From Apus apus (Eukaryota; Chordata; Aves; Apodiformes; Apodidae), in assembly GCF_020740795.1 (NCBI RefSeq), contig NC_067289.1:26716108-26780107 (forward strand): a stretch of 64,000 nucleotides of DNA, read 5' to 3'. Below the pieces are notes generated by a model. That model did not search any database, had not been told where the DNA came from, and saw nothing but the letters and a program-made list of their open reading frames with translations. Below are positions 39,701-64,000 of this stretch, in pieces. Both the position numbers and the translations under genes were made by a program. Each line of letters starts with the position of its first letter. Positions within the stretch are counted from its first letter, which is position 1.

Positions 39701-41848
39701 TAAGACACCTGAATGAGGCAAAATGTTGCCTGTCCCAGCCTCCCAGAGGCATGGGACAGATCTGTACCCTGAGGCTGCTTTCACAAGAATTTGTCCTCCC
39801 TTTGAAAGATCAATGCTTGGTAAGACTTGAATATTTAAGTCATAATGCCAAGCTCTTCCAGCTGCATTTGAATGCATTGAGAATTACACTTTTCAGAGGA
39901 TCACAAAGAAGTTCCTGCAGCATCCAACAGGAGTAGTTCCTAAACTATGGCCTTCTCTCACTTGTCACCTTTATTTCAAAACTCTGAAGAGCATCTGCAA
40001 TCTCTGCTTCATATCACCAGCATTACCATCCCATTTGGAAATACAATTTGAATTCAACAGAAAGGGCCAGATGCTGAAAAATGCACTCCAGATTTGGCTC
40101 AAAGCGTTTTGGTTATGAATGTTTAGGGCAAAAGCAGTTGCCACTGAGCAGGTGTCTAACAAATAGTCATTTAGGCTGCATGCACTGGTTAGAATGATAG
40201 CACTGATGTTTTCCTGTTCTGCCTGGTGCTGATGTCAGCTGGACTTTATCTAAAGCTGAAACTAAATCAATAAAAGGAAAATTCCAGTTTTAAACTTGGC
40301 TTCTGCCATTTGAAAATATGATGGTTTCTTTCTAACACTTGGGTGTCTAACAGGGAAACTAATTAAGCAAATGCATTTGAGGAAATAAGTCTTTTCACTT
40401 AGCTAATGTTGACAAACCTATGCAGGAGTTACATTGGTATAATGAAAGACTAGAGTCTGGCTCCTAAACTTGAAGCATATAAATCCCAATATGCTTTTCC
40501 TATATATTATAGGTAAAAAAATGTGTAATTAAATTGAATTGCAGCCACTACGTTTCACTTACTTCACCCTGTTGTTTCTCTAATAGGTACCTCACAGATT
40601 ATCCTGCTTGGTCTCGCTGCACCGAGCCTGCTAACATCGTGGAGTGGAACATCATTTTACTCTCTATTCTTATAGCTCTTAGTGGACTGCAGTTGATCAT
40701 CTGTTTCCTCAAAGTGGCTGCTGAACTGAAACGGACACTCTGTGGAACCTATTCTGTTTTTGTCCAGGTAACATAGTATCTGAGGTAATTTCTTCAGCAT
40801 CTCTAACCAGTCTAGCTTCAGCAGTTTCCCTCTGTTGAGGACCTACCCTTTTGGTTTATGCATTCTCTGTGCTACTGTGTTATTACCAGAGGATATGTAC
40901 TGATAATGCCATTGTGGAATACAAGGATTGGTGACTGCTCATTCTGACCTTTAAGGCTAGGATTGAGAACAAAAAAATGTGGCTGGGAATTCAGCACCGA
41001 TGCTGAGTCCATTACTCCTGGGTCAGCAGAGGCTTCTGAGCACCTTTTCTCTAGCATTCAGTTTAAAGTCATTCTTATCAGTGTGTGGATTTCACAACAA
41101 ACAGAAGAAGATGCAGGAGGCAATAATATGCAGCAGTCATGACCTAGACATGGGTTTTTACTACATTTTCAGTAGGTTATTGGAACAATAACTGAGAAGG
41201 CTGTGCTTTGATCAGAAGAATTAGGTGGAGCCCCAGAGCTCAAGTGACTGCTGCTGACCTGCGTGGAGGTGTGAAGTGGTGTGGTTTGGCGTGGTGTCCT
41301 GTTTCCCTAGCTTTGCAAGCAGGGTGATGATAGACACGCTTGTCCCTCCCTGTCGAGCTGCACGAGACCAAGGAGCCCTCAGGGTTTTATGTAGCCGGCA
41401 GTCTCAGTGTGATGGCACATTCCGGAGAGATTTCTAATTAAGAGAAGCTCAACCCCCAAAGGCCTGTGTGCACAGCCACGCTCGCGCACACGCCTGTGCT
41501 GACCTGCAGAGCGCGGGGGCAGGTCTGTGGTGGGAGTCGGGAGGACAGAGGGGATGGGATGGCGCGGCCTGACCGGGGCAGCAGCCGGGCAGGGAGCAGG
41601 GGACAGGCACGGCCGTGGGCAGGCTGGCAAGGAAGCTTCTGGTAGGAATTTACTGTAAGGGCCACCCACCCACGGGCCAAGGCCTGAGGCGTTTCTGCCG
41701 GGGCTGCCGCCAAGCGCCAGCGGTGCTGCCGGCCCTGGGCCTGCGTCGGGCTGGGGTTGCATGTGGGTGCTGAGCACTTCGTGTTAACTTCAGTTGAAAA
41801 AAAGACGGCAATTAATTCCTTTTTTATTTACAGGCCAGGATTCTCTGA
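36569..41848 (+). CDS. TM4SF18: TM4SF18, transmembrane 4 L6 family member 18 (complete, 5 coding exons)
   Basis: Exons are 36569-36745, 38311-38400, 39081-39223, 40587-40767 and 41834-41848. They total 606 nt, giving 201 aa, the same length as human TM4SF18 as I recall it. Diagnostic segments are CGSCLSCLLIPLALWSIVVN (TM1), NYVWYFEGICFSGVM (TM2 start), RCCQSESCNKTYR (cytoplasmic loop), VAFSGYSCIIFTLGLIQGPF (TM3) and NIILLSILIALSGLQLIICF (TM4). The first-loop motif is FFPNGKASHAAS. The start has a good context (G at -3, G at +4). The function is poorly characterised; it is presumed, like other L6 members, to be a membrane organiser. The final four residues (ARIL) differ from the PGII I recall for human because of a one-base shift in exon 5. 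Confidence 0.95.
38311..38400 (+). CDS. TM4SF18: TM4SF18 coding exon 2
   Basis: This exon is 30 codons between CCTTACAG|ATCC and TACAGG|GTAAGT, phase 0 on both sides. It encodes the end of TM2 and the loop RCCQSESCNKTYR. Confidence 0.95.
39081..39223 (+). CDS. TM4SF18: TM4SF18 coding exon 3
   Basis: This exon is 143 nt between TTACTTCAG|AGTTTT and GGAGG|GTAAGA, ending in phase 2. It encodes TM3 and the first part of the second outer loop, with an NSS sequon (CNSSSGWDY). Confidence 0.95.
40587..40767 (+). CDS. TM4SF18: TM4SF18 coding exon 4
   Basis: This exon is 181 nt between CTAATAG|GTACC and GTCCAG|GTAACA, ending in phase 0. It encodes CTEPANIVEWN of the outer loop, TM4 and the cytoplasmic tail ending SVFVQ. 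Confidence 0.95.
41455..41765. other. GC- and CpG-rich block in TM4SF18 intron 4
   Basis: About 300 bp is rich in CpG (CACGCTCGCGCACACGC, GAGCGCGGGGGCAGG, CAGCCGGGCAGGG), unlike the AT-rich surroundings. It ends about 70 bp before exon 5. It may be an intragenic CpG island or a GC-rich drift patch; no exon can be supported. Confidence 0.55.
41834..41848 (+). CDS. TM4SF18: TM4SF18 coding exon 5 (Ala-Arg-Ile-Leu and stop)
   Basis: From acceptor TTTACAG|GCC, phase 0 reading gives GCC AGG ATT CTC TGA. The exon continues as 3' UTR. The +1 frame reads Pro-Gly-Phe, closer to the human end, but has no AG acceptor to open it. Confidence 0.75.
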   Translation, partial: ARIL

Positions 41849-47015: not shown

Positions 47016-47170
47016 ATGAAGCTATTCTTCCTAAGTTGCTTGCTGGTTTCTTGCTCTTGCCAAGCTGGAGCAGTGAAGAGGGAGTACTACATTGGCATTG
47101 TAGAGACAGTGTGGGACTACGCACCCGGCAGCACCGATGCTGTGTCTGGAAAGCTTTTTGCAGAAGAGAC
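47016..47170 (+). CDS. CP: CP coding exon 1 (signal peptide, domain 1 start)
   Basis: This exon is 155 nt from ATG (A at -3) to donor GAGAC|GTAAGT, ending in phase 2. It encodes [19 protein letters not shown] followed by the mature N-terminus with [14 protein letters not shown]. Confidence 0.94.
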
Positions 47171-50100
47171 GTAAGTAAAAACAGTTCATGCTGGCTGAGT
47201 TTGGTTTTACTGCATTGTCTGCTTTAGGCATTAGGGCCAGGCTGAAAACCTGGTAAAGGCAGTGAAATGAATCGTGGTGTTGTCAGTGGATTTTGTGTCA
47301 GACATATAAATCGATGTTGATCTTTTTCTGGGCTTGCTTGAGAAGTACATTCCAATGCTCTGCTAATCAAAAGCGTTGGGATATGCAGGTTTCTTGTGAG
47401 TTTGTTGCAATGAAATGTTTACTAAGTAGAGACTAGAAAAAACCCTGAATGTCCAAAGATGTTTGAGTGCCAGTGGTTAAGAGAAGACTTGCTGTTAGGT
47501 TTTCAAATGCAGAAGTTTGACAAGTTTAAAACATTCCTGTTGGGCACAGGTTTCCTTTTCAGCTGTTTGTTGTTGGCAGGGGTCTTCTTCAGTGGTGCAG
47601 CAGCACAGCTGAGTCCTTCCACTCACAGTGGAGGAGCTGGGTTGCTTGTCACAGGGCAAGAAGGGCCTTGTGCAGAGTAGAGCAATGGGTATGGTGAGGA
47701 GGAGGGGAGCACCCTGAAGATATGACTAATCAATAAAGAAAACTCAGATATAAAAGGCATCAGAGAAATATTTGATAGATAAAAAATGTTCCTTCCTGTT
47801 ATTTTCTTTCAGTGCCTTTAAAATGAAGTAGGACTATAGTGAAATAAAAACAAGGAAGAGAGAAATAAGAAATTAGAAAAATAATTTAGTCTGTAGATGA
47901 GGGATTAGAAGATTTCCTGTCGTTTGTTTTCTCTAATGAGAGCCAACAATATCTCAGCCATAATCTGCCACTTCATCAAGCATGAGACAAAGCAGTCAGC
48001 TTTTTGGTTTTGTTGACTTGTAAGTAAGTGACTTGTAAGACCCTGCCAGTGATTCAGCAGACTAGTAATTCTGATAAATGGTGGAAGCAGGGTGTCTCAC
48101 CTGAAAGCTGCAGGGTGTCTCACCTGAAAGCTGCAGGGCAGTGTTGTAGCACAAGCCAGCACCGTTCATTGCACTTTCACTGCTTTTCTGTGCTCTGAGG
48201 CAACCTGCAGCATGCTAAATTAATTCCAGTTTTTCAGTGGTTGCATGCCTGCTATGGAGCTGGTCCCTTTTATTGCCCTTCCCGTGTTCAGCTTCTCTGA
48301 TTCTTCTCCTCCTCCTGAGTCATTTTTCAGCTATGAGGCTGTGCATGTACAGAGACTGAAATTTAGCAAGGCAGGGAGCAGCAGGGGAAGGGAAGAGTGT
48401 GGTATACCTGCTGGAAGGAATACTCTACAGTTAGGTGGTAGCTGTTTAAACAGTCCAAGAAGAGCCATAACATGCTTATTTGATCTGATTTGCAGCTAAA
48501 AGGTTCCTGCACTCAAACTTCCAGTAACTTGAGTATTTGCAACTAAGTTTAAGCTCTCCAAGTTTCATGGAGCTCTGAGTTGCCATTTTAATTACACTTC
48601 AGATCTGTGCTTGCCAAGGTACAATGCGCTCAAACAATGCTCAGCCTGTGGGAAATACTGTGCATTTTGGGGCAGTGTTAACTTGCTTCACAGTACAGCT
48701 TGCTGTGAGGATGGACCTGAGTTGGCTTTGTTTCTCCTCATGTAAAATAAGAAATCAGGAGGCTGCTGAACTCCAGGCAGTGTTGCCCTGTATCCTGGGA
48801 TTGCCTCCTCCTGGAGCAGGTTTGCTTCCACAGCTCATCCTCTTGAAATGGGCCTGGAAATCTGCAGGAAGGTTTGTTTGGGCTAAGAGCACCAGCACTG
48901 CTGGTTTGAACAGCCAGGGCTGGCAGTTTCTCTCACTATTGTAGTTAGGGAACATAAGCACTTTTTCCACACAGCTGACTGTTCTCAGGCACTAAAATAC
49001 TTACTGAAAGGTATTTGACCCTCAGCATGGGTAAAGGTTGGCTCCAAAGCTGTGGGCAGAGAAGTGTAGTGACCCGTGCTTGGGCAGCATGTCCATGGCA
49101 GCCACACTGCTCCGAGGTCTTGATACCACAAATTATCAAGGGAATGTAGGGAATGCTATCTCCACCAGTCTTGTTTTGCTTCCTGAGTTAGGCTGTTTCC
49201 CCACTAACCAAGCTCTCATGTAACCTGTTGGTCTGTAAAAATAAAACTTTCTTAGGGTAAATGCATATGAAGCTCTGAGGCTGTGATCTCCGTCTATGAC
49301 TGGTGGGCAAGCTAAGGGCTGGGTCTCATTTCATCACTCTGCATACCCCCTACCCCACATGCACACACTGGATATTGGCAGCACCTTGTTGTTTTGCCAA
49401 TGTCCAGACACCTTAAATTAATTTTACAGTGAAAAGTCTGCTCCTTATTGCAATGGAGTTACCATAATAGCACCATGATGGAAATTACTATTTTTAACAG
49501 GCCGTGGAAAATCTTACAGCAATTTAAGCATGCAAGTACAAAAGTTTTGAGCAATAAGAATTATTATTTGCCTTGTCCACAAGGTCTCAGATTTGCCCAA
49601 AATTGTATAAAATACCCTCATCTTCGGTCTACAAAGTAGGTAGAAAAAAAATCAAGTGCATAACATTTGATCTCTATATGGATGCCTAACTCTTTATGAT
49701 AGGAGACTTATTTGTTCCTGAACACAAATACAGTTGTGTACAGCAGTGTGGAGGCCTGGTCTTTATTTGAGACCCTACTAATTAACACCATGCAAATACC
49801 AAGTGAGTATCTGACACCACAGATGTGTTTGTGTGTTTTCATTACAGGCAAGCTGGAGTCTTTGTCCAAAGAGGACCACAGAGGATAGGAAGCACTTACA
49901 AGAAGGCTGTCTACACTCAATACACCAATAATTTATATGATGTGATAGTTGACAAACCTTCATGGCTGGGTTTTTTAGGCCCTGTCATTAAGGGAGAAGT
50001 TGGAGATTCTATTATTATTCACTTGAAAAACTTTGCTTCCAGAAACTACACACTGCATCCACATGGTGTAAGATACACAAAGGAAAATGAAGGTAAGGTT

Positions 50101-53100
50101 GAGTCCATTCTGTGCCAGAATTTATCAGAAGTAAATAATTCCTCTGAGTGTAAGTGATATTTTCTCATCAAAGAGAAGACTGGACAGACAACTAAATGAA
50201 GATTTAAACCAGCACACAATCCATTTAAAATTGGAGATAAGAAGTTTGATGATTTTTTCAAGAGCAAAGTACAAAGCCCAAAAGTGGTATTCATAAAGAA
50301 GACATTGTAGATCAGCATCTCACCTGAAATAAAAGTATTTATATTTCACCTGGAATAAGGGTATAAAGGTATGTAAGAGGTGCAGGATTGAGATACATAA
50401 AGGAAAAATTGATGCTGTTGTGAAGAAGACAGTTATCAGGGATAACTTCGAGTTCCAACACTATTAATTTGTATATATCGTATGTAAGATACACAGGCAT
50501 TGCTTAAAATGGAGAAACAGCTACTGCTTAGTAACAAACCAGCAGGTGAGTCTGGCACATGGCAAGCTGCAGGGTCGGGGGGCTGCTGGGGTCCCTCGTG
50601 CTTTGCCCTTGTGGTCACTGGGCTGGTGGCCCTGGGGGACGGGGGATTCTGCGCCGGGCGGCACCAGAAGGTGGCTCTGGAGGGGTTTGGTTTATTAGTG
50701 GGCCTTAAAAACCATGTGTGAATTCTTGAGAATCTGATGCTATCTTGAAAGCAGTCTTTAACAATTTTTCATTAGAAGGATTAGTGAAGTATCAACTTCT
50801 AATATTTCAGGAAGTGTTTCATTACAACGAATATGTGACTTGGAACAGACACGGTCTGTGGGAGCAGAGCAGTGTGTTATGGAGCAGTACGAGGGCTTTT
50901 TGGAACAATGCTGGAATTCGGTTTTTTTCTGTTGCTCTCTTCCCAGTGACCCCTGTATTACGTGAGGACACATACAATATTTTAGAACAGTTTCCAAGCT
51001 TAATATTCAACAAATTATTTACAAATATTCCAATTGTTATCTTTTTAGCAGAGTTACATAGTGCCTTCCTAATAAATTAAGGATTAAATTTAATGTGCCA
51101 TTAATTGAAGGACTCCCATGGAATTCCAAGAAAAATGAAGAGACTCCTAAAAGAGGAGGAAAAGATCTACTAATGTGATTTTAAAGATTTTTTGTAACCT
51201 GTATTCAGATGTTCAGCCTGTGTTACTGCAACATGTAAAGCACGGCAGGTGCTATCCTGATGCCATGAGGTGAGTGTGTTGTGTTAATGGTGGCTGTGTG
51301 GCATTTTTCAGGTGCTTTTTATCCTGACAACACCAAAGATGTGCAAAAAAGAGATGATGCTGTGGAGCCTGGAGGCCAGTACACCTACATATGGGATGTG
51401 ACAGAAGATCAAGGTCCAGCCAAGGGAGATGCAGACTGCATAACCCGGGTTTACCACTCCCACATCGATGCTCCACGAGATGTTGCCTCAGGGCTTGTTG
51501 GGCCTTTAATAATTTGCAGAAAAGGTAAACCACAAATAAGTAATTAAATAAATACACATGCAAGGTGATTGGTAATGGTTGTTGATAAATACCAGTGAAA
51601 TAACTGACTGGAAGAGGAAAAGATTACAGCTAATTTTGAAATAGCAGCTTTTTGTCTTCTCAGCTGCCTTGCGATAGCGTAGGAAGTAGTTTGATTTTGT
51701 GTGACAGTGAGTATAATTTGCAAAATACTGTGTCCCCAAATCCATATGAGTGAGAGGTATTCATGCTAGTAATGCAAAAGGATGTGTAAATACAGATATG
51801 AGGAACAGATTTACTGTAATCTTATCACAGGCAATATTTATTCTTAGTAAAGTTATTTTATAGTATCTATCAAAACTGATTTTTGTTTTCTGAGCATATC
51901 TGTATATTTAGGTATAGAATCACACTCAAGGAAAGTGGCAAAATACGAAGTAAATAGTGACCAGCCCATTTAAAACTGAAGAAAATATGTCAGTTGCCAA
52001 AAACTTTGAATATACTGCTTTCTTTTTCAGATAAAATGAATAAGGGCAGTGATAAACACTTTGATGCTGAATTTATCCTTATGTTTTCTGTGATGGATGA
52101 AAATCTCAGTTGGTACCTAGAGGAAAATATCAGGACATACTGTTCTGAGCCTTCCAAAGTTGACAAAGATGACGAGGACTTCCAGGAAAGCAATAAAATG
52201 CACTGTGAGAGAATGTTATATTAACGTTGCTTGTCGTCGATATGGTGAAGTAATCTTTTTATGTGTTGTCTCTTTTAAAGATGAACTGTAGATAATTTAT
52301 CTTTTTTTAGGGAGGGCTTTTTATTGGAGGATAAGGAAAGATTGTTTTAAATTTAAAGGAAAAAAAAAAGGTAATTAAAAGTGATGGCAAGTATTTTACA
52401 GTCAAATCTTGGGAGTTGTGATATCAAATCTTTAGGGCTCAAGAACCTCTTTGCTGGTATAATCTCCCAGGTGCTCTAAGCAGAGAATTGTTCTGTTTCT
52501 GTTCTGTTTCTTACTCCCAAAATCTGTAGTATAATATCACAGTTTAGAAAAACAGTTTTTACTGTTAGTGTCAGCAAAGAAGATGCCTGTGGCTCTGACA
52601 GGATTCCAGAGTCACAGCAAGAACTGCTGGTTATGCAGGTGAAGTGTGTGTCTGATACTGGCCCACTCTAAAGGTGTGGGGTTGAGTTTTGATCCTCTTT
52701 CTAGTTTGAAGAGTAGAGCAATGGGTGTGTGACACTTGCTTTTGAAGAAAGATCCTAAGGTCTCTGAAGGTAACTGAAATAAATAACATTTCTTTTAGCA
52801 ATCAACGGGTACATGTATGGATACCTCCCAAACCTCACAATGTGTGTGGAAGATAAGGTTAAATGGCATCTTTTTGGCATGGGAAATGAAGCTGATATCC
52901 ATTCAGCCTACTTTCATGGACAGACCCTAATAGAAAGGCACCATCGAGTTGACACCATCAGCCTCTTCCCAGCCACATTTGTTGATGCTGTCATGGTACC
53001 AAGGGGTCGAGGGGAATGGCTGCTCAGCTGCCAGGTGAATGACCATATCGAAGGTACAGAATAAGTTCCAGCCCTGGGAATGTTTTTTTGCCTTGAGCTA

Positions 53101-56100
53101 ATAGTCTGCTGAGTCCCTTAGTGATACTCCTGATTATATACCAAATGACATTCTTCTCTAGGTAACAAAGCTTTCACAGTAATTGAAATGTGTAGAAGTT
53201 TATTAGATGGGCTTGAGCATCTAGCCATGGAAATCAAGGAAATTCTTGTCTGTAAAGGAAATTGTTACCAGTTGGCAGCAATGGGCACAGCTGCATTTTT
53301 GCAAGCCTCAACTTTGGACAAACAGGAACATGATGCTTGGCTCTTGCTGAGGGCAATTAATCACAATTTTTTATTTGCCAACAAAATGGTTGGGGCTCAT
53401 TCCATCTTTTGGCATGGGACACAGGACAGACAGGCTAACTTGCCTGGTGATAAAGACATGTTCTGGAAAGTGCATTGGCTAAAAAGCAGAGATTATCTGC
53501 ATTTCTCTTCCCTGCATCTTCCCGTATTTCCAGTGTTGTTAACCATATAGATACTTAGAAGCCAATGCCACACTTTTCCATGATCTATATCCCTATATGT
53601 GAGCTAGAGGAGTAATTTGTCACAATAGTGGAAAGGAATACAGAACTCAAAATCACTCTCCAAGATTTGAAAATTCTGATATAAAAAGGAGTATGTTTAA
53701 CCTGCAGGTTAAATCCACAGAGGTTCTAAGTCTTGAAATAACTCTCATCAAGCAGCATCCTGATGTGGTTAAGATGACTGAAAGTGGGGAAGAAGAAAAC
53801 AAAGTGTGGTTCCTTCTCCCTAGTTTTCTCCACCTCCTCATTTTTTTTCCAGGTGGTATGCAGGCCCTTTATGAAGTAAAAGATTGTGGGAAATCCACAA
53901 CAAATCACAATGAGAGGACAAAGATAAGAGAGTACTTCATTGCTGCTGAAGAGATCATCTGGAATTATGGCCCATCTGCAGTAAATAATTTTACAGGACA
54001 AGAATTAATCTCTGACAGGTAAATGTTTCTAATTAAAGAAGTTTTACTTTCCAAGCAGAATTAACATAAACGTGCTGAGTAAGGTAAGCCATATGGTAGA
54101 ACTGACTTTTAAGTAGAATTTCTCATTGTCCTCATTTCTACTTAAATATTAATGCCAGATTAAATACCAGAACAAATTAGGTCTGTTGTTTTCCTTGCAA
54201 TCTTACTATAAATTTTGCTGTACTGTTAGTAATTTCATTGGGATGAAGATGAATTGTAATATATGCAGGTGGTCACCTCGGATGATTCAAGATGGGTGAT
54301 TATTCTGAGTTAGAGAATGAGGACAGGAATTCATTATCATCTCCTTAACTGATGAAAGTCATGCTGGTAGCATCTCAGCCAGCAAATGGCTTGCACAGGG
54401 TAGCTTTGCCCTTTGCTCTGTGTTTAGGTACTTATGACCTGGATCAAGTAACTGTCGAGACTGATTCCTCAGGGTTTTAATCTGTGAGTTAAAGAATACT
54501 TACCTGCTCCATGAGGGCTGAGGCACAGCTTATTGTTTGAAAAGTGCTTGTAAAACACTGAAAGGTCCTTTTTTGAGGAATAATCCAAGAGAGCTCCGTT
54601 GTGATCAATGGAGCAGGGCCCAGTTGGAGGCCTGTAGCCAGCGGTGTCCCCCAGGGGTCAATACTCTGTCCAGTCTTGTTCAACATACTCATCCATGACC
54701 TGGATGAGGGGACAGAGTGTGTCCTCAGCAAGGTCGCTTCCTCAGTCAGTTTGCAGATGACACCAGATTGGGCAGGAGTGTTGATCTGCTTAAGGGTAAG
54801 AGGGCTCTGCAGAGGGAGGTGATCATGCCCCTGCACTGGTGAGGCTGCACCGTGAGCAGTGTGTGCAATTCTGGACTCTTCACAACAAGAAGGACATTGA
54901 GGGACTGGAGCAAGCCTACAGAAGAGCAACCAAGCTGGTGAAGGGTCTAGAGAAAGTCCTATGAGGAGAGGCTGAGAGAATTGGGGTTGTTTAGTCTGGG
55001 GAAGCAGAGGCTGAGCAGAGACCTCATTGCTCTCTACAGCTCCCTGAAAAGAAGTTGCAGTGAGGTGGGTGTTGAGCTTTTCTCCCAAGTAAATAATGAC
55101 AGGACTAGAGAAAAAGACATGAAGCTGTGCCAGGGTAGGTTTAGACTGGGTATTAGAAATAATTTCTTTACTAAAAGAGTGGTTGGAGACTGGAATGGGC
55201 TGCCCAGGGAGGTGATGGAGTCACCATCCCTGGAGGGATTCAAGAAATGTGTAGATGTGGCACTTCAAGACATGCTCTCGTGGGCCTGGTGGGTGTTGTT
55301 GTGTTTGGTGTTTGTTTGTTTGTTTGTTTGTCTGTTTTCCCTCCTGGGTGGCAGTTGGACTCCGTGATCTTAGAGATCTTTTCCAACTGTAATGATTCTG
55401 TGTTTCTGTGAAAGCTGAGCAGTACGACTTGAACTGTTTGCATCTGTTGCAATTTCTTTCACACAGTGAATCTCACACATTTTTTGAGCAAAATGAGACA
55501 AGAATTGGTGGCTCTTACAAAAAAGCTGTTTACAGAGAATACACAGATGGATCTTTCACTGAACGTAAAAAAAGGCTCACAGAGGAAGCACATCTTGGAC
55601 TCTTAGGTAAGATATCTAAAATTCTTTCATGTCAAAGATTTGTGAGAGTGATCTGTCACTTCCCCAGGCTAGCCAACAGTGCCTGTCTGCCTCCAAGGGA
55701 GGGTTCCTCAGCTCTCCCTCACTCCTGCAGGTGCTTGTGGCTTTCTCCAAGCGCCACACCAGGGTGTAAGAAAGCTCTTGAAGGCAATGCTTTGGTGGTC
55801 CTCAGCTTGCCTGTGGGAATGTGGCATGGTGTCCAGAGGTCAGGCTCTGAATTAGAAAGCCAGGCAGGTCCAGCCCTATTTATAACCTAGCTGCTTTTGG
55901 CATGGCTCTGGACTGAGTTTCAGGTTGGCACCAATGCCTGTAGGTCCCTTTCCAAAGGTAAGAACTGACGTGCATGTCACAGGGCCTCCATGAGGAGCTG
56001 GGAATGGAGCTGCTGGGCTGCTGTGTGAGTCGGGTCGGTGCCAGGAAGCTGCTCTGTGGCCACGCAGGGGCAGGGGCAGCTCCCCATGCAAAGGGAGAAG

Positions 56101-59100
56101 TAGCCAGCCACTGATCACCCTGGTGATCTGCACATCACTTGGCAGAAACATCTTGTAATGTTGACCGTGTGCTCTTTTTTAGGACCCGTGATCAAGGCTG
56201 AAGTGGGTGAGAGCCTCAGGGTGACCTTCAGGAACAGAGCCAGCCGCCCGCTCAGCGTGCAGCCCCACGGCCTGGGCTGCAGCAGCCCCCGGGGCGCTGG
56301 GTGCCAAGGTGGGCAGCAGGGAGCACGGCCTGTGCCAGCGCTGGCACCTCCCCTCTGCTCCTGAGGCATCACTCCTCATCTTCTGTCTATGGCAGGTACT
56401 GACTCTCCAGCCTCTCACGTGAGTCCTGGTGCTACGTTTACCTACGAGTGGGATGTGCCGGCAGATGTGGGCCCCACGGACCAAGATCCAGACTGTTTAA
56501 CCTGGCTTTATTATTCAGCTGTGGATGCAGTCAGAGACACCAGTTCTGGCCTTGTGGGTCCTCTCTTGGTGTGCAGGAAAGGAGCTTTGCTTCCCTCTGG
56601 GAAACAGGTGAGTCAAAATGTAGAAAAATGGAAGCATTTGCATAATCGTAGCTGAATCTGCTTTGTCTTCCTGGATCGTGCCCTCAGGGGCCTGCCACGT
56701 TCAGGGCCACGCAGCAACACCCAGTTCCACTGCACAGTCTCATCCTTGTGCTGAGGGGAGTACATCAGATAAAGAAAGTGGGGGCTTGGGGGTTTTTGTT
56801 GGGGTTTTTGTTTGTTTGTTTGTTTTGTTTTGTTTTAATTTTTAAAAAAGCAAAATGAGTTTGGGTCCAGAGGAGACAGACTCTGTGTTATGAAACCACC
56901 GTTTGCAGTGAGCAGCCACTGGCGTTCATTGCTCAGCTAGGATGAGAGTAACTAGAAGAACGTAGAGACTTTAAAGTCCAAAACCCACATTCATTTCCAG
57001 AGATGATTCCTGCTGGTAGAAAGAGCATTAGCAGTAAATCAGATACAGCAGTTAGAGAGCTATATGATTATTGGAATGAAGCATCAGTGTCCTACTTTGT
57101 GAATTAGAAATTATGATGTGTGTAAAAACTTTTTCCTGACATTTTCTGTTCACTCCTGTATTTCTTGACACTATTTCTTCTCAACAGAAAAATGTGGACA
57201 TGGAGTTTTTTCTACTGGCCACAGTATTTGACGAGAATCTGAGTTGGTACTTGGATGACAATATTTTGATGTTTACACTAAATCCTAATGAAGTTGACAA
57301 AGATGATGAGGACTTCCAAGAGTCAAACAAAATGCACTGTAAGAAAAATATTAGTTAGCCAAATATTCATTTCACAATAAGGTTTTTACTTTTGTACTCT
57401 CATGTTGGAGACTGGGAAGCTATAGTGGCAGAGACATTTCATTCCTTTCCATTGGAAACCAAACCTTGTTTGAATGTAATTCAATTCCAGACAGATGTGG
57501 TAGTTGAAAACACAGAGCCAGCTGTTCAGTGCCTGGGGTGGCAGTCGAGCAGTTAGCCCTGCTGTGTACTTTTTGGAGCAGACAGGAGAACTTTGGTCTG
57601 CAGCCCATGTGTAATCCCTGTGAATGCAGCCAGGCAGCAAGAGAAAACTGACCTCTGCCCTACAGGTGATGTAGCTGAAAGGAGGATTTTTCCAGAATTA
57701 CAGACTGGTTGAGGTTGGCAGGGTCCTCTGGGGTCCGTCTGGGCCAACACCCTGCTCAGGCAGGGTCACCCACAGCCAGTTGCCCAGGACCATGTCCAGG
57801 TGGCTTCTCAAAACCTCCAAGGACAGAGACTTCACCTCCTCCCCGGGCAACCTGTGCCGGTGCTCGGTCACCCTCTCAGTGAAAAAAGTGTCTCCTGACG
57901 TTCAGAGGGAACCTCCTGTGTGTCAGTTTGTGCCTCTGGGCCTGTCACTGGGCACTGCTGGGAAGACCCTAGCTCCACCTTCTGTATGTCCTCCCTGCAG
58001 GTATTTGTACAGGTGGATGAGATCCCCCTGAGCCTTCTGATCTGCAGGCTGAACAGTCCCAGCTCTCTCTGCCTCTCCTCATGGGAGAGCTGCTTTCTGG
58101 TGCCTTCATCATCCTTGTGGCCCTTTGCTGCACTCTGTCCATGTCTCTCTTGTCTTGGGGTGCTCCAGGTGTGGCCTCAGCAGTGCTGAGCAGAGCAGAG
58201 GGATGCCCTCCCTCGACCTGCTGGCCACGCTTTGCCTCATGCAGCCCAGGGCACCATTCAGCCTTTGCAGCAAGAGCATGTTGCTTCCTTTGTTCAGTTT
58301 GGTGTTTACCAGGCCCCCAGGACCTTTGCTGCTGGGCTGCTTTCCCGCTTGACTTGTCTGAAGTGCTGCTCCAGCAGCAGCTGTGAGCTGACCTTCCCAG
58401 CGCTCCCAGACAGCCCGGGAGCCTCAGCCCCGCCGCGGCAGGGACACTTCTCTGGCTCATTTGGTGTCTCTGCCGAGTCTGGCCACTGTGGCCTCCTCAG
58501 GGTGAAAGTCTTTTCTTCTCTAAGAGGGCAGACCTGAGTTTCACACTGGTCATAGTCTGAAACTGTAGAAAGGTCTTTCAAGTGTCCTGTGAGAGAACAT
58601 GTTTATCTTCAGTACCTAGTCCTAAGCTTTAGAGTATTTGCTTGTGCTTTTTCTTACATTTTGCCCTCGGGGCCTTCCCTCTGTTTACAGAGCCTGACAC
58701 TGAGCACTCAGTGGTGCCTGTGAGGCCCAGGCTGTGGAAGCTTTGCACTGGAGTAGCTTGAAAGGGTTAGTAACTCGCACTGAGGTGTCTGCTGGAGGGC
58801 TTGAAGGGCAGAAAGCATGACGCTTGTGCATCATGCCTACTTGACAGGTGTAAAGCAATGGAAGTTCCAGTTGGTCAAGTCAGCTGCCTGTGCTTCAGAC
58901 AGTGAAAAGGAGAACAGTTATAAATTGTTTTTAAACAATGTGTTTTAAAAGTTCTTTTGCTTGAATTAATTTTTATAGTTTCACTGATGTGAGAAAATAT
59001 TTTATTACTGATGTTTCTGTCATTCTAAGGTATCACATCTTAATTATTATTAATAATTTAATTAAATATTATTTATTTTACATGTATTGTAGAATTAAGT

Positions 59101-62100
59101 AATTTGTTAATCAAGATGGGTTTTGCTTCCTCAAATCTTCTGCAGCCATTAATGGTTACATGTATGGAAATCAGCCTGGTCTTGAGATGTGTAAAGGAAG
59201 CGTGGTTTCCTGGCACTTGATGGGCTTGGGGTCAGAAGCTGATGTCCATGGGATATACTTTTCAGAAAACACATTCATAACTAAAGGAACAAGAAGAGAC
59301 ACCGCAAATCTGTTTCCACATACATTTCTGACAGCTGTTATGAAGCCTGATTCTGAAGGTAAATGTTTTGTTTTAAAACTCTTGTTACTAGTTTAGAAAC
59401 TGTTAACCTATTAACATTTTGTGCTTAGAGACAAGTTGTAAATAGCTGATATTTTGACCTTTTGGTTGCTAAAACCATGTATAGTTGTGTTTCAGGGGCA
59501 GCAAACATCTTCATAGGATGTAAGCTCTGAGTGCTAAAGCCTTGATTTTTCTAGCTTCTGTGTATGCTGAATATTATTACCAGAAGTAGCCATACTACAC
59601 CAAGACTTGATTTTGCATGAGCAGTAGCCTGTGTCTCAGTCTCCAGACACCAGATCACCACAGGTAATACAGTCTCTGGATCTACTAGTAACAGATGTTT
59701 GTCCTCAAGTCTGTCTTTCTTGTACAACCTCTAGGAGTTTTTGAAGTGTCCTGCCTGACAACAGATCACTACACAGGGGGCATGAAACAGCATTACAAAG
59801 TGAAACGATGCCATTGGTGGAATGTGGATCCCTCTCTGTATTTGCATGAAAAGACTTACTATATTGCTGCAGTGGAAGTTGAATGGGACTATTCTCCTAA
59901 CAGGACTTGGGAATTTGAGCGGCATCAATACCATGAGGAAAGGTACTTTGGAATATACACAAGAAAGAAAAATGCAAAAAAGCAAAGGACCATCTTACTT
60001 CCCCTCTGAACCTTCTCCTTCTGTAGGCATTTCTAGAGACACTTTCTTTAACATATCTTTCTAGGCCTCACTTGAATTTGTGATTCTTCTCCAGTAATGT
60101 TGCTATGTAACTGTGAGCAGACAGTGTGATGTTCATGAAAAGCAGCACAGATCTTCTGTGGGGCTGCTGCAGATTTTTGTGAATCTTGGATAGAGCCTCT
60201 GTGTGTATTAGTTACTGATATTGGTGCAGTCCTTGATGTGGAATGCCTAAACAGAACTAAAATGTTCATTAAGTCTTAGATACAATGACTACTTTGTGCT
60301 GATAGTAACTTTGTGCTGTACTAACGACATGTGACCTGTCTGTCTCATGTTTATCTGTATTCTGAGAAAGGTTCTTTTTCACTGCTCTCAGTTTCTTTAA
60401 CTTAGTCCAAGACCAAATTCATTCACTACCAAGCTCTGTCACCTGGGTGTTTTATTCACAGTATTTGAATCTCAGTGAGAGGGAACTGATTGGCTCAAAT
60501 AATTAATGCAAATTAGCAGAAGAGGCTAAACAATGAAGTGATTAATTTCTATGTGTTCCACCTGTATCACTTCATTTGAGGTTAGAGTAGTAGATTGTAA
60601 CTGCCTATAGTTTTTATTTTTAATTGACAACTGTATTTTCTTCCTTTTCCTCAGCCTGATAGCACGTCTTTGCCTTGCATAGCACAGTGGGCTCTGGCAT
60701 AGTGCTGAGCACAAGGAATATAGACTATGCTTTTACCAGACTGGTTTTTTCCCCACTGTCTCTGAGGATCTGTCCCTCACTTTTAATTTCAGCAAGGCAC
60801 TTCAGATTTACAAGTTTTAGGCTTCATTTCAGATCTACAGAAATCACTTGAGTGCTCTGGTTTTTGGTATACAAATTGCTGGATGACTTCTTGCAGTCTG
60901 AAATACCAGCCACGAAAAGCACTCTACATTCTCTCAGATACTACAGAGACTTGGAGCACTTACAGTGGTTTTTTATTTCTTTCAGGTTAAGATAAACCTC
61001 CCAGCTTAAAAAGAATGTCTTCATGTTGAATATACCAGTGGCCTATGAGATTACTGTTTCACTGAGCTGGATTTTTGTTTAATGATTAATTGACATACCT
61101 GCAAAATATTTAAAATACACTAAGAAGTGTGCATATTTTTATCTCAATTTTCTCAAATTCTTTCTTCCTCCCTTTTCCTCCCAGCCCTGGCAACCCATTT
61201 TTAAATAAAGAAGACAAATTCATTGGCTCAAAATACAGAAAGGTGGTGTATCGGGAGTACACTGATCAGACATTCAGTACTCCCAAACACAGAGCAGAGG
61301 AGCAGCAGCACCTGGAAATTCAAGGTATAGTAATTGTGAAGTTCACTTTTGAAACTGGGAAACAGTTAAACAAAACAAGAAGATAGTATTTGAACAATAA
61401 TGAGTGTTGTTCTACCCACACAAAACCTCTAAAATGACCTGGAATTGCTACTTTCGTTATGGTGCTTTCCTTCTAAGATGACATTGCTTGCTTTGCAAGG
61501 AAAAAACCCTTGTTTTTCTGCCTGATCACACACCAGTACTTACAAAGACAGCGTAAAACTGGGCAGAAATATTCAAACTGATTTTAAAATCACAGTAGGT
61601 GCTCAAGGCTTTTGAAACTTGGGCCTCTACTTAGGTGATTAACTTCAGCTCCTCGAGTTGGTGTATCCCAGGGAATAACATTATCCATGTACAGGTTTTA
61701 GGTGAATTATAAGCCAATGTTGTTGTGCATTTGAACACAGAAAACTGTCTTGCTCTGCTCTGACCTCCTGTAAAACCAAGTTAATCTTTCCTTTCAATCC
61801 AACAGGGCCACTGCTTATGTCAAATATTGGAGATAAAATTATAGTAGTTTTTAAGAACTTGGCATCAAGACCTTATTCTATCCATGCCCATGGAGTGAAA
61901 ACAGACAGTTCTGTTGTTGCTGTAACTAACCCAGGTATCAAAGCATCCTTCTTTATTTCTAGCAGGTAACATCAAGCCTTCTAGCAACGTTTAGCAAAGT
62001 TTCATTTGAGGATAGCTGGAGAGACTTCATTTTTGTTTGTTTGTTTCTACCTCAGTTTTTTTTTAATTTGTTATGCTGCTGATGAGAAATATTTCTACAA

Positions 62101-64000
62101 TTTCAATGGTCCTGCAAACTATTGCTATGTATCCTACTCCTTGGCAGATCAGTCATTTTTTTGACACAGTGTGGCTGCACCTTTCATGAAAGCAAACAAA
62201 TATGGCTGCAGAGGGAGAGCACAGCTTATGCTAGCTATTATTTCAAAAGTTCCTTTGTGATCTCTACAGAAGATACAATTGGTTTCATTAAGTCTGGTGA
62301 ACTGGAGAGTGTAGTTGCACAAGAAAACATTGGCCAGAAGAGTCAGGGATCTGGAGAAGGGAAATAACAGTAAACTAGCCAGTGCAGTATTTGGGAAGAG
62401 GAAGTTTAAGACAAATATAAGCTCTAAATGGAGATAACATCTCTTTCAGGATGACCTATTATGGGTCATCACACAGAAAACTTCTAAAATTCATCAATAT
62501 TTATTCAATTCAGGTGAAACAAAGACCTATGTCTGGAAAATCCCAGAGAGATCTGGTTCTGGGAGAGGAGATCCAGATTGTATTGCATGGGCATACCATT
62601 CAACAGTGGACATCATTAAGGTATATGATTAGTACCACTATAAGTGGTTTTGCTCACAACAACACAGGTACTGCTACAGCAAAAGGGAGATGAATGTGAA
62701 AAGCTGCTTTTTTTTTTTTTTTTTTGTCAAGTCATTCCCCCCATGACCAGGCCTTTGAATGTAAAGCTCTCTTGAATGTTGCAATGAATTCAAGGCAGAA
62801 TTTGAGAGTCACAGCCCTTCATGTTCTTGCTCCCTGTTTCTTCTGCTTTCTCTATAGATCACCTCGCTCAGATTTTGTTCTTAAAGCTCACACTTCACAG
62901 CTTGCTCAGTATCTCAACAGTCACGTGTGGGAAACCTCACATGCAGCTGTGGAACATGAATCTGCCATGTTTTTCCAAGGGCCCATGAACTCAACATAAC
63001 CTTGGTTGTCAGGCACTGGCTGCCCTGATTCCCAGATACCAATAGCTGTAAAAATACTGAGAGGATTCATGTTTGCATTTAAACTGCTCCTGCTTTGTCA
63101 CATTTTGTAATTAGATGATTTTTCATTTGTAATTTCAGGACACTTACAGTGGATTAATAGGCACACTTGTTGTGTGTCGTAGACGTTATTTGCCATCATT
63201 TCATACTAAAGAGAAAGTTCAGTTTGCTCTTCTTTTTATGGTTTTTGATGAAAATGAGTCATGGTACTTGGATGAAAACATTAAAACCTATTCTGCCAAC
63301 CCACACCTTGTTGACAAAGAGGATGAGGAATTCCTTGAAAGTAATAAAATGCACGGTATGTTTCCCAGTTTACTGGATGTAACTATAAAATTACATATTT
63401 GAAAGTAGTGCATATACATTTGACTTTCTCATCCCCTCTGAATTTCCAGTGGAAAACCTGAAAAATTTAACTCAATCTATTTTAAAACATAGTTAATGCC
63501 TCCAAATGACTTGTGGGGTTTTTGTTTTGTTGGTTTGGGCTTTTTGTTTTTTAACACCTATGAAAAAATGCTCCGATGTTGAAGTTTTGAGAGAGTAAAA
63601 ATACAATCTGAAATTTTTATTTTGTATCAGTGAACAACTGTTCTGGATCAGTTGGAAAAGCAATGTGTGTCCTGAAACTATGTCCTGGTAAGGCTTACCC
63701 TTTACAAAGAGCTGCAGGAAATGCAGATATTTAAGAACTGCAGTATTAGTGATGGTGTAGTGTGAACTTTCAACTATGTCTTATTTTCTAGTTAAATATA
63801 GAACATTTACTGTTTTGCTTTTATATACCCCTCAAAGCCATTACTTTTGCCTGGCATTGGCTTTCAAATCTTGTATACTATTTAAGTTTAGAGAGTCAGG
63901 ATGCATAAAATCTTATTTGTTTTCTCTGTCTTGCCCTTTCCCTCTTTTTAGCCATTAATGGAAAGGTGTTTGGAAATTTACATGGTCTGACCATGCATGT
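47016..64000 (+). CDS. CP: Ceruloplasmin (multicopper ferroxidase), 17 coding exons, 3' end outside window
   Basis: Seventeen exons join in frame into 966 codons plus 2 nt; human CP precursor is about 1065 aa, so roughly 100 C-terminal residues lie to the right. A signal peptide of 19 residues ends ..CQAGA, and the mature start [16 protein letters not shown] matches CP. Six cupredoxin-like domains are expected and five and a half are present. Trinuclear-cluster ligands of domain 1 are His122, His124 (HPH) and His182, His184 (HSH). Type 1 copper ligands are His297, Cys340, His345, Met350 in domain 2 and His647, Cys690, His695, Met700 in domain 4. Disulfide pairs C176-C202, C278-C359, C525-C551, C628-C709 and C865-C891 match the human spacing. 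The domain 6 ligands are beyond the edge. CP oxidises Fe(II) for loading of transferrin and carries plasma copper (family knowledge). A hephaestin paralogue is less likely because of the secreted N-terminus and the synteny. Confidence 0.96.
48087..48138. repeat. 23-bp tandem duplication
   Basis: The unit GCAGGGTGTCTCACCTGAAA plus GCT is present twice, exactly, at 48087-48109 and 48110-48132, followed by the first six bases of a third copy. It lies in CP intron 1. Confidence 0.95.
49848..50092 (+). CDS. CP: CP coding exon 2 (domain 1, first His pair)
   Basis: This exon is 245 nt between TTACAG|GCAAGC and GAAG|GTAAGG, ending in phase 1. It encodes [27 protein letters not shown] and the trinuclear ligand motif TLHPHGVRY (His122, His124). 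RNYT is a possible N-glycan site. Confidence 0.95.
51312..51524 (+). CDS. CP: CP coding exon 3 (domain 1, second His pair)
   Basis: This exon is 213 nt between TTTCAG|GTGCTT and AAAAG|GTAAAC, ending in phase 1. It encodes [22 protein letters not shown] and [15 protein letters not shown] (His182, His184), then [12 protein letters not shown]. Confidence 0.95.
52031..52204 (+). CDS. CP: CP coding exon 4 (domain 2 start)
   Basis: This exon is 174 nt between TTTTCAG|ATAAAA and CACT|GTGAGA, ending in phase 1. It encodes [20 protein letters not shown] and the acidic [14 protein letters not shown] block. His262 closes this block, where human domain 2 has Tyr. Confidence 0.95.
52799..53053 (+). CDS. 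CP: CP coding exon 5 (domain 2 type 1 copper ligands)
   Basis: This exon is 255 nt between CTTTTAG|CAATC and GAAG|GTACAG, ending in phase 1. It encodes [17 protein letters not shown] (Glu293, His297) and [14 protein letters not shown] (Cys340, Asp344, His345). NLT at 274-276 is a sequon. Confidence 0.95.
53853..54018 (+). CDS. CP: CP coding exon 6 (end of domain 2, start of domain 3)
   Basis: This exon is 166 nt between TTTCCAG|GTGGTA and GACAG|GTAAAT, ending in phase 2. It supplies axial Met350 and Cys359, then domain 3 [19 protein letters not shown] at 393-395 is a sequon. Confidence 0.94.
54580..55410 (+). mobile_element. CR1 LINE, sense copy in CP intron 6, internally deleted
   Basis: Recognisable CR1 blocks in order are CCCAGTTGGAGGCCTGTAGC, TTGCAGATGACACCAGATTG (degraded catalytic-box region), GAGAGAATTGGGGTTGTTTA and GGAGGGATTCAAGAAATGTG. 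The tail is TAATGATTCTGTGTTTCTGTG. Some reverse transcriptase sequence between the catalytic box and the CTGCACCGTGAGCAGTGTG block is missing, and several frameshifts are present. A (GTTT)n expansion at about 55311-55331 interrupts the 3' end. It is old and inactive. Confidence 0.9.
55467..55606 (+). CDS. CP: CP coding exon 7 (domain 3)
   Basis: This exon is 140 nt between TTCACACAG|TGAATC and TTAG|GTAAGA, ending in phase 1. It encodes [20 protein letters not shown] and [17 protein letters not shown]1 copy ends about 56 bp upstream of the acceptor. Confidence 0.95.
56183..56308 (+). CDS. CP: CP coding exon 8 (domain 3, GC-rich, divergent loop)
   Basis: This exon is 126 nt between TTTTTTAG|GACCCG and CAAG|GTGGGC, ending in phase 1. 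It encodes [20 protein letters not shown], then a divergent [13 protein letters not shown] with two cysteines (Cys482, Cys490) not in human. It is much more GC-rich than the other CP exons. Confidence 0.9.
56396..56607 (+). CDS. CP: CP coding exon 9 (domain 3 end)
   Basis: This exon is 212 nt between ATGGCAG|GTACTG and AAACAG|GTGAGT, ending in phase 0. It encodes [31 protein letters not shown] and [12 protein letters not shown]. The intron before it is only 87 bp. The segment before SPASHV is about 13 residues shorter than in human. Confidence 0.94.
56803..56836 (+). repeat. (TTTG)n / (TTTTG)n simple repeat
   Basis: A short TTTG run passes into TTTTG units in CP intron 9. Confidence 0.85.
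57188..57338 (+). CDS. CP: CP coding exon 10 (domain 4 start)
   Basis: This exon is 151 nt between CTCAACAG|AAAAAT and CACT|GTAAGA, ending in phase 1. It encodes [15 protein letters not shown] and [14 protein letters not shown], ending at His612 of the domain 4 iron-holding motif. Confidence 0.95.
57693..58350 (-). mobile_element. CR1 LINE, antisense copy in CP intron 10
   Basis: Reverse-complement CR1 blocks are seen on the plus strand: CTGCTCAGGCAGGGTCACCC near the 3' end, CCTCCAAGGACAGAGACTTC, CCCTCTCAGTGAAAAAAGTG, GGTGTGGCCTCAGCAGTGCT and GGCCACGCTTTGCCTCATGC. The layout parallels the copy at 9317 but represents a different, more diverged subfamily with a GC-rich 3' part. The reading frame is broken many times. 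Confidence 0.88.
59146..59358 (+). CDS. CP: CP coding exon 11 (domain 4 type 1 copper His)
   Basis: This exon is 213 nt between TCTGCAG|CCATTA and GAAG|GTAAAT, ending in phase 1. It encodes [18 protein letters not shown] and [14 protein letters not shown] (Glu643, His647), then [15 protein letters not shown]. Confidence 0.95.
59735..59942 (+). CDS. CP: CP coding exon 12 (domain 4 Cys-His-Met, domain 5 start)
   Basis: This exon is 208 nt between CCTCTAG|GAGTTT and GAAAG|GTACTT, ending in phase 2. It encodes [16 protein letters not shown] (Cys690, His695, Met700) and [19 protein letters not shown]. The donor is weak, but the join to exon 13 is in frame and the domain 4-5 segment keeps the human length. 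Confidence 0.92.
61185..61324 (+). CDS. CP: CP coding exon 13 (domain 5)
   Basis: This exon is 140 nt between CCTCCCAG|CCCTGG and CAAG|GTATAG, ending in phase 1. It encodes [20 protein letters not shown] and [11 protein letters not shown]. The usual HLGILG at its end is HLEIQG. Confidence 0.94.
61806..61934 (+). CDS. CP: CP coding exon 14 (domain 5)
   Basis: This exon is 129 nt between CCAACAG|GGCCAC and CCCAG|GTATCA, ending in phase 1. It encodes [20 protein letters not shown] and [11 protein letters not shown]. Confidence 0.94.
62514..62620 (+). CDS. CP: CP coding exon 15 (domain 5)
   Basis: This exon is 107 nt between AATTCAG|GTGAAA and ATTAAG|GTATAT, ending in phase 0. It encodes [16 protein letters not shown] and [15 protein letters not shown] His replaces the second Tyr of YYSTVD. 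Confidence 0.94.
63139..63355 (+). CDS. CP: CP coding exon 16 (domain 5 end, domain 6 start)
   Basis: This exon is 217 nt between ATTTCAG|GACACT and CACG|GTATGT, ending in phase 1. It encodes [37 protein letters not shown] and [12 protein letters not shown]. Glu945 and His950 correspond to the human domain 6 iron-holding pair. Confidence 0.95.
63952..64000 (+). CDS. CP: CP coding exon 17 (partial, cut by window edge)
   Basis: It begins after CTTTTTAG and encodes [17 protein letters not shown] before the window ends. The domain 6 copper ligands should follow immediately to the right. Confidence 0.92.

Follow-up and report, generated by a model that had tools for sequence, protein, structure and literature searches.

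The redox-inert type 1 copper of human ceruloplasmin (CP) is a long-standing oddity, and a bird CP that carries the ligands missing from the human site is a direct test of its cause. Such a protein is encoded in the stretch of the Apus apus genome analysed here, 64,000 nucleotides of contig NC_067289.1 (positions 26,716,108 to 26,780,107 of the forward strand; hereafter the window), and the question raised by this locus is whether domain 2 of its CP holds a third ferroxidase subsite that works. Judged from the sequence, a third working site in bird CP is likely. We assign a probability of roughly 70% to the reading that bird CP keeps an ancestral, complete third subsite together with a copper that, as we infer, is able to cycle. 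Papers are cited by PMC number where one is given.

The gene lies on the plus strand at 47016-64000, counted from its coding start up to the last letter of the window, and splicing predicts 17 exons, the last one open, separated by 16 GT-AG introns with consistent phases. The spliced product is a fragment of 966 residues (numbered here from the signal peptide) that is open at the end of the window, and it matches human CP (PDB 4enz) over query residues 1-966 with 1459.9 bits, as against 715.1 bits for the best factor VIII chain; there was no hephaestin chain among the PDB matches to the fragment. By its sequence the gene is a vertebrate ceruloplasmin: over the whole fragment it resembles CP more than it does the factor V and VIII chains in the PDB. 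It continues past the window, and the DNA directly beyond it in the same genome (locus L004) encodes the domain 6 motif GMGNEIDIH and the end of that domain, HCHVTDHIHAGM. Type 1 copper ligands were found in domains 2, 4 and 6, that is, in the three domain pairs, and the trinuclear cluster, which lies between domains 1 and 6, has its histidines represented, at the level of motifs only, by HPHG and HSH in domain 1, HAHG in domain 5 and HFHGH and HCH in domain 6.

An earlier note on this DNA had proposed that domain 2 is complete, and splicing places every residue it named (E257, H262, E293, H297, C340, D344, H345, M350 and E643) at the number claimed. Exon 4 (52031-52204, plus strand) begins domain 2 and carries the iron-site ligands Glu257 (52186-52188) and His262 (52201-52203). 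Exon 5 (52799-53053, plus strand) supplies the type 1 copper ligands His297 (52900-52902), Cys340 (53029-53031) and His345 (53044-53046), the iron ligand Asp344 (53041-53043), and Glu293 (52888-52890), a ligand that serves the domain 6 site in trans. Exon 6 (53853-54018, plus strand) has the axial copper ligand, Met350 (53858-53860), at its start. At this junction exon 5 ends in CGAAG before gtacaga, and exon 6 opens with GTGGTA after ttttccag, which puts Met350 five residues past His345, the spacing on which the earlier proposal depended. The codons of His262, Asp344 and Met350 are CAC, GAC and ATG; the window contains no N, and three independent sequencing errors, each restoring a ligand, are implausible.

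The iron set of domain 2 is completed from domain 4, by Glu643 (59235-59237) in exon 11 (59146-59358, plus strand), the expected trans ligand. The iron set of domain 4 itself consists of Glu607 and His612 of an ESNKMH motif in exon 10 (57188-57338, plus strand), Asp694 and the Glu of the domain 6 motif GMGNEIDIH; Asp694 is encoded in exon 12 (59735-59942, plus strand) along with Cys690, His695 and Met700 of this second type 1 copper/iron site. In domain 6 the set is Glu945 and His950, again of ESNKMH, in exon 16 (63139-63355, plus strand), the Asp of HVTDH and Glu293 from domain 2. Since domain 6 is complete as well, all three type 1 copper/iron sites of bird CP are intact by sequence. This cyclic sharing of ligands between domains matches the published human iron sites, which are E935, H940, D1025 and E272 for domain 6 and E597, H602, D684 and E971 for domain 4 (PMC11817551). 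In two crystal structures of human CP, Glu633 of domain 4 lies 3.58 and 4.11 Å from the domain 2 copper ligand His324 (PMC6614124), so that bird Glu643 should sit in the right place, as the earlier note had supposed.

At the domain 2 site, bird CP differs from human and rat CP at three of these positions. The best PDB matches are human CP (1kcw, 2j5w, 4enz) and rat CP (5n4l, 5n0k), which share with it the domain 2 His, Cys and His and the trans Glu, and the human domain 4 and domain 6 rows have all eight site residues, as in the bird. Bird domain 2 aligns with human domain 2 (1kcw, 4enz) over 146 residues with zero gaps, and opposite His262, Asp344 and Met350 stand Tyr, Asn and Leu in human and rat CP alike. 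The human residues given in the earlier note are therefore correct, and the three differences fall at ligand positions and are not shared by the mammalian CP examined. For human domain 2, PMC11817551 lists E236, Y241, N323 and E633, with Leu, and does not expect iron binding. In PMC3738974 the human domain 2 set consists of two Glu together with one Asp and one Tyr, whereas the PDB sequence and PMC11817551 both give Asn in place of that Asp. The human state, an axial Leu with an incomplete iron site, is thus absent from bird CP (Met350, His262, Asp344), and we take it as a trait of human and rat CP and not as a definition of the CP family.

Which of the two states came first was addressed by comparison with relatives. 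Protein searches and tblastn of the bird's own genome (1.10 Gb, 110 contigs), with 48 matches in the protein search, gave four further six-domain genes, all away from CP and named by similarity and motifs: hephaestin (contig C13, 20.36-20.38 Mb), hephaestin-like 1 (C1, 11.2 Mb), a factor VIII-like gene (C13, 4.65 Mb) and a factor V-like gene (C1, 66.9 Mb). Pfam PF07732 gave 0 matches among 14 candidates in this genome, probably owing to short exons. When 84,980 prokaryotic species, each represented by a single genome, were scanned with sequence patterns, three two-domain relatives were found (L001-L003, from metagenome-assembled genomes) with 44-50% identity to bird domain 2, and tblastn of a plasmid collection added one more, on a Methylocystis heyeri plasmid (L005, 46.9%); a scan of viral contigs found no relative at its sensitivity. 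The scan patterns were drawn from the bird protein. MFSVMDEN, which caught L001 and L003, spans none of the compared sites, and no matching pattern spans Asp344 or Met350. These prokaryotic multicopper oxidases have all eight copper and iron residues but are single two-domain units, which would need a neighbouring subunit to provide the trans Glu. A folded alignment of three of the prokaryotic relatives was a poor model (mean pLDDT 46.5) and was not used. As a separate observation, the M. heyeri copy adjoins genes for a ferritin-like protein, an FMN-binding protein and an FMN transferase.

We aligned 19 second-domain rows, in which domain 2 (d2) stands beside domains 4 and 6 (d4, d6). Human hephaestin and hephaestin-like are known here from papers alone, and the bird factor V-like and VIII-like d2, rat CP d4 and d6, and d4 and d6 of human factors VIII and V lie outside the 19. 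The axial Met is present in 17 of the 19 rows, Leu occurring solely in human and rat CP d2. The iron His is kept in 16, Tyr taking its place in d2 of human CP, rat CP and human factor V. For the iron Asp the count is 13. The other six rows have Asn (d2 of human and rat CP, bird hephaestin d4), Glu (bird hephaestin-like d2), Ser (human factor VIII d2) or Lys (human factor V d2). All eight site residues occur together in the four prokaryotic rows, in bird hephaestin d2 and in d2, d4 and d6 of bird CP. The bird factor VIII-like exon junction, outside the 19 rows, keeps the Met and has Ser at the Asp position.

Not only do the differences in domain 2 run toward the pattern of domain 4, as the earlier note held, but domain 6, bird hephaestin d2 and the four prokaryotic rows agree with it too. 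This agreement makes loss in human CP the simplest direction of change, again as had been suggested. Retention in the bird and loss in the mammalian line is thus the simplest reading of the aligned sequences, and a well-supported one, at all three positions, most strongly for the Met and most weakly for the Asp. The wider segment points the same way, in that the d2 segment of bird CP is 69% identical to bird hephaestin d2 and that of human CP 54%. Among 35 columns where the bird differs from an identical human and rat residue, the bird residue prevails among ten other rows in 21 columns and the mammalian residue in 8, and 6 are ties (21 against 8, two-sided binomial p = 0.024, which is only a guide because these rows, two of which are bird CP domains, are related to one another).

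Hephaestin bears on the Asp in particular. The bird gene, on a different contig from CP, has the full domain 2 set (L036, C13:20372000-20380500, minus strand; exon 5 near 5188-4931), reading SCQINDHIQ before the exon junction and AGM after it, with the Asp present. Human hephaestin shares the apical Met and E264, H269 and E652 of a predicted extra iron site, but has Ser351 at the Asp position (PMC11817551). Both bird enzymes thus keep the domain 2 Asp, and it seems to have been lost in mammalian CP and mammalian hephaestin. A domain 2 with an apical Met and a predicted extra iron site is already on record for human hephaestin, and bird CP is not unique in this. The domain 2 type 1 copper site of human hephaestin-like 1 (zyklopen) is likewise typical, with H304, C347, H352 and M357 (PMC6534290), and the bird hephaestin-like 1 protein keeps the domain 2 Met, as checked across the exon junction, but differs at three iron-ligand positions: Thr stands in place of Glu257, Glu in place of Asp344, and His in place of the trans Glu from domain 4. 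Other subsites of these genes also vary by one ligand each, as seen in the Asn at the iron Asp of bird hephaestin d4 (L037) and the His at the trans Glu of bird hephaestin-like d4 (L039).

The bird state could also have arisen by a secondary regain, through gene conversion with domain 4 or hephaestin as the donor, instead of ancestral retention. Bird d2 and d4 do share 23 identical residues around ESNKMH, and a maximum-likelihood tree does not unite the d2 rows, placing bird hephaestin d2 with d6 and the prokaryotes (support 39). However, 9 of those 23 codons differ between bird d2 and d4, all of them synonymously (11 of 69 bases), which argues against any recent conversion there, and the codons near Asp344 and Met350 are unlike those of hephaestin. 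The same tree groups CP d2 of bird, human and rat together, if with a weak ultrafast bootstrap of 77, and the prokaryotic rows share the His, the Asp and the Met. We therefore rejected conversion from either source on the synonymous differences and codons, and consider a regain of this kind very improbable. Human and rat CP d2 are grouped at a support of 99, and three deeper nodes with supports of 32 to 39 were not used. Faster evolution limited to mammalian domain 2 was also rejected, for the human branches are longer than those of the bird not only in d2 (0.49 vs 0.16) but in d4 (0.38 vs 0.11) and d6 (0.21 vs 0.09) as well.

With retention of the ligands as the preferred reading, one may propose how a third entry for iron would operate. 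Met350 would lower the potential of the domain 2 copper enough for it to cycle, and ferrous iron would bind about 9 Å above this copper, the distance described for the iron sites of human CP in domains 4 and 6 (PMC11817551). The electron of the iron would pass to the domain 2 copper and hop about 18 Å to the domain 6 copper, and from there to the trinuclear cluster; in human CP the distance is about 18 Å between type 1 coppers and about 13 Å from the domain 6 copper to the cluster (PMC6614124). Bird CP would then have three iron entry points instead of two. In its fullest form this model has every type 1 copper of bird CP cycling and iron in each of the three interface sites, and it is mammals that dismantled the domain 2 subsite, by changing the axial ligand of the copper and two of the iron ligands separately, and that also lost the hephaestin Asp. 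We regard this fullest form as an even bet.

Several facts count against a working third site and against its ancestry as read here. In one laccase a Leu-to-Met change brought the potential down by 140 mV, in another a Met-to-Leu change put it up by 90 mV, and a pair of laccases whose first-sphere ligands are identical are 250 mV apart (PMC4220974). The potential of the human domain 2 copper is said to be too high for it to be oxidised without damage to the protein (PMC3738974), and with a starting point this high the Met alone may not suffice. In human hephaestin, mutagenesis found E960 and H965 of domain 6 to be critical, and high-affinity oxidation seemed not to require the iron sites of domains 2 and 4 (PMC11817551). 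As to ancestry, the mammals compared are human and rat, the birds are represented by one genome, and the pattern that caught L002, MHSINGYM, includes His262, so that this residue in L002 does not count as independent evidence. Our own inference from the potentials is that Met would shift that of the bird copper in the right direction; cycling is not proven by the Met alone.

The hephaestin mutagenesis suggests a different role for domain 2, in which its copper is redox-active while its iron site contributes little, leaving a conserved, near-idle entry like domains 2 and 4 of human hephaestin. The bird hephaestin-like protein is in line with this, since it retains the domain 2 Met despite the changes at three iron-ligand positions, and Met can therefore persist without a full iron site. 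Yet bird CP and bird hephaestin retain all four domain 2 iron ligands plus the Met, and the human hephaestin experiments, with Ser at the Asp position (PMC11817551), tested an incomplete site. Because bird domain 2 has the full ligand set, the human result does not settle the case of the bird site. We hold the near-idle entry tentatively, at somewhat less than even odds; it overlaps with the preferred reading of a retained subsite and a cycling copper.

A further possibility is that the domain 2 copper stays reduced in spite of Met350, held so by second-sphere residues, with no change in function. The spread of potentials between the two laccases would allow for this, and Fet3 is a ferroxidase with Leu (PMC11817551); together they indicate that the axial residue alone is not decisive. 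Against it, the other domain 2 residues of the bird lean toward the compared rows in the 35 columns described above, although not all of those rows are active sites and not all of the columns are near the copper. We think a permanently reduced bird copper unlikely.

If the fullest form of the model holds, the copper that stays reduced in human CP would be left over from an ancestral site that worked, and not a designed feature. The bird sequence suggests that the human CP state is derived, and it would call for caution in applying the two-site model of human CP to birds. Among the matches listed in literature searches, no title or abstract concerned the domain 2 ligands of bird CP, and PMC11927744, when searched for passages, yielded none on this point. 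Spectroscopy of chicken CP is directly relevant to whether the third copper cycles. Calabrese 1988 reportedly deals with it, to go by its title, and Machonkin and others 1999, also on chicken CP, reportedly opens by citing a claim that this protein has no permanently reduced type 1 copper, which would agree with the sequence described here. Bielli 2001 reportedly describes mutants of the type 1 sites of human CP. A phylogenetic study that includes chicken and zebra finch CP found the copper sites of domains 2 and 6 to be the most conserved and fish CP to be without the domain 4 site, and the axial residue in bird CP is not taken up in the part of its text examined (PMC3600357).

Some smaller features of the locus may be added. 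In CP itself, the domain 3 loop (56269-56308 and 56396-56420, the end of exon 8 and the start of exon 9) is short and GC-rich, with two Cys. That of human CP is longer and contains SRSVPP, a protease-sensitive site around Arg481 that the bird loop does not have. Where human CP reads EPIGV, domain 3 of the bird protein also holds a QPHG remnant (SVQPHGL; 56260-56271, exon 8) that resembles a motif of the trinuclear site. Elsewhere in the genome, the presence of hephaestin and the factor VIII-like gene on one contig of 20.8 Mb would be consistent with a chromosome 4A.

In the remainder of the window, searches with Rfam (at gathering scores) and ARAGORN found nothing. Upstream of CP, an exon-like open frame at 40513-40776 (plus strand), which we presume to be a TM4SF gene, matches the L6 membrane protein family (Pfam PF05805, E = 5.1e-17). 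CR1-like LINE copies are usual in birds, and CP intron 6 harbours a LINE copy at about 54590-55410, presumably CR1-like, with the end TGATTCTGTGTTTCTGTG (55393).

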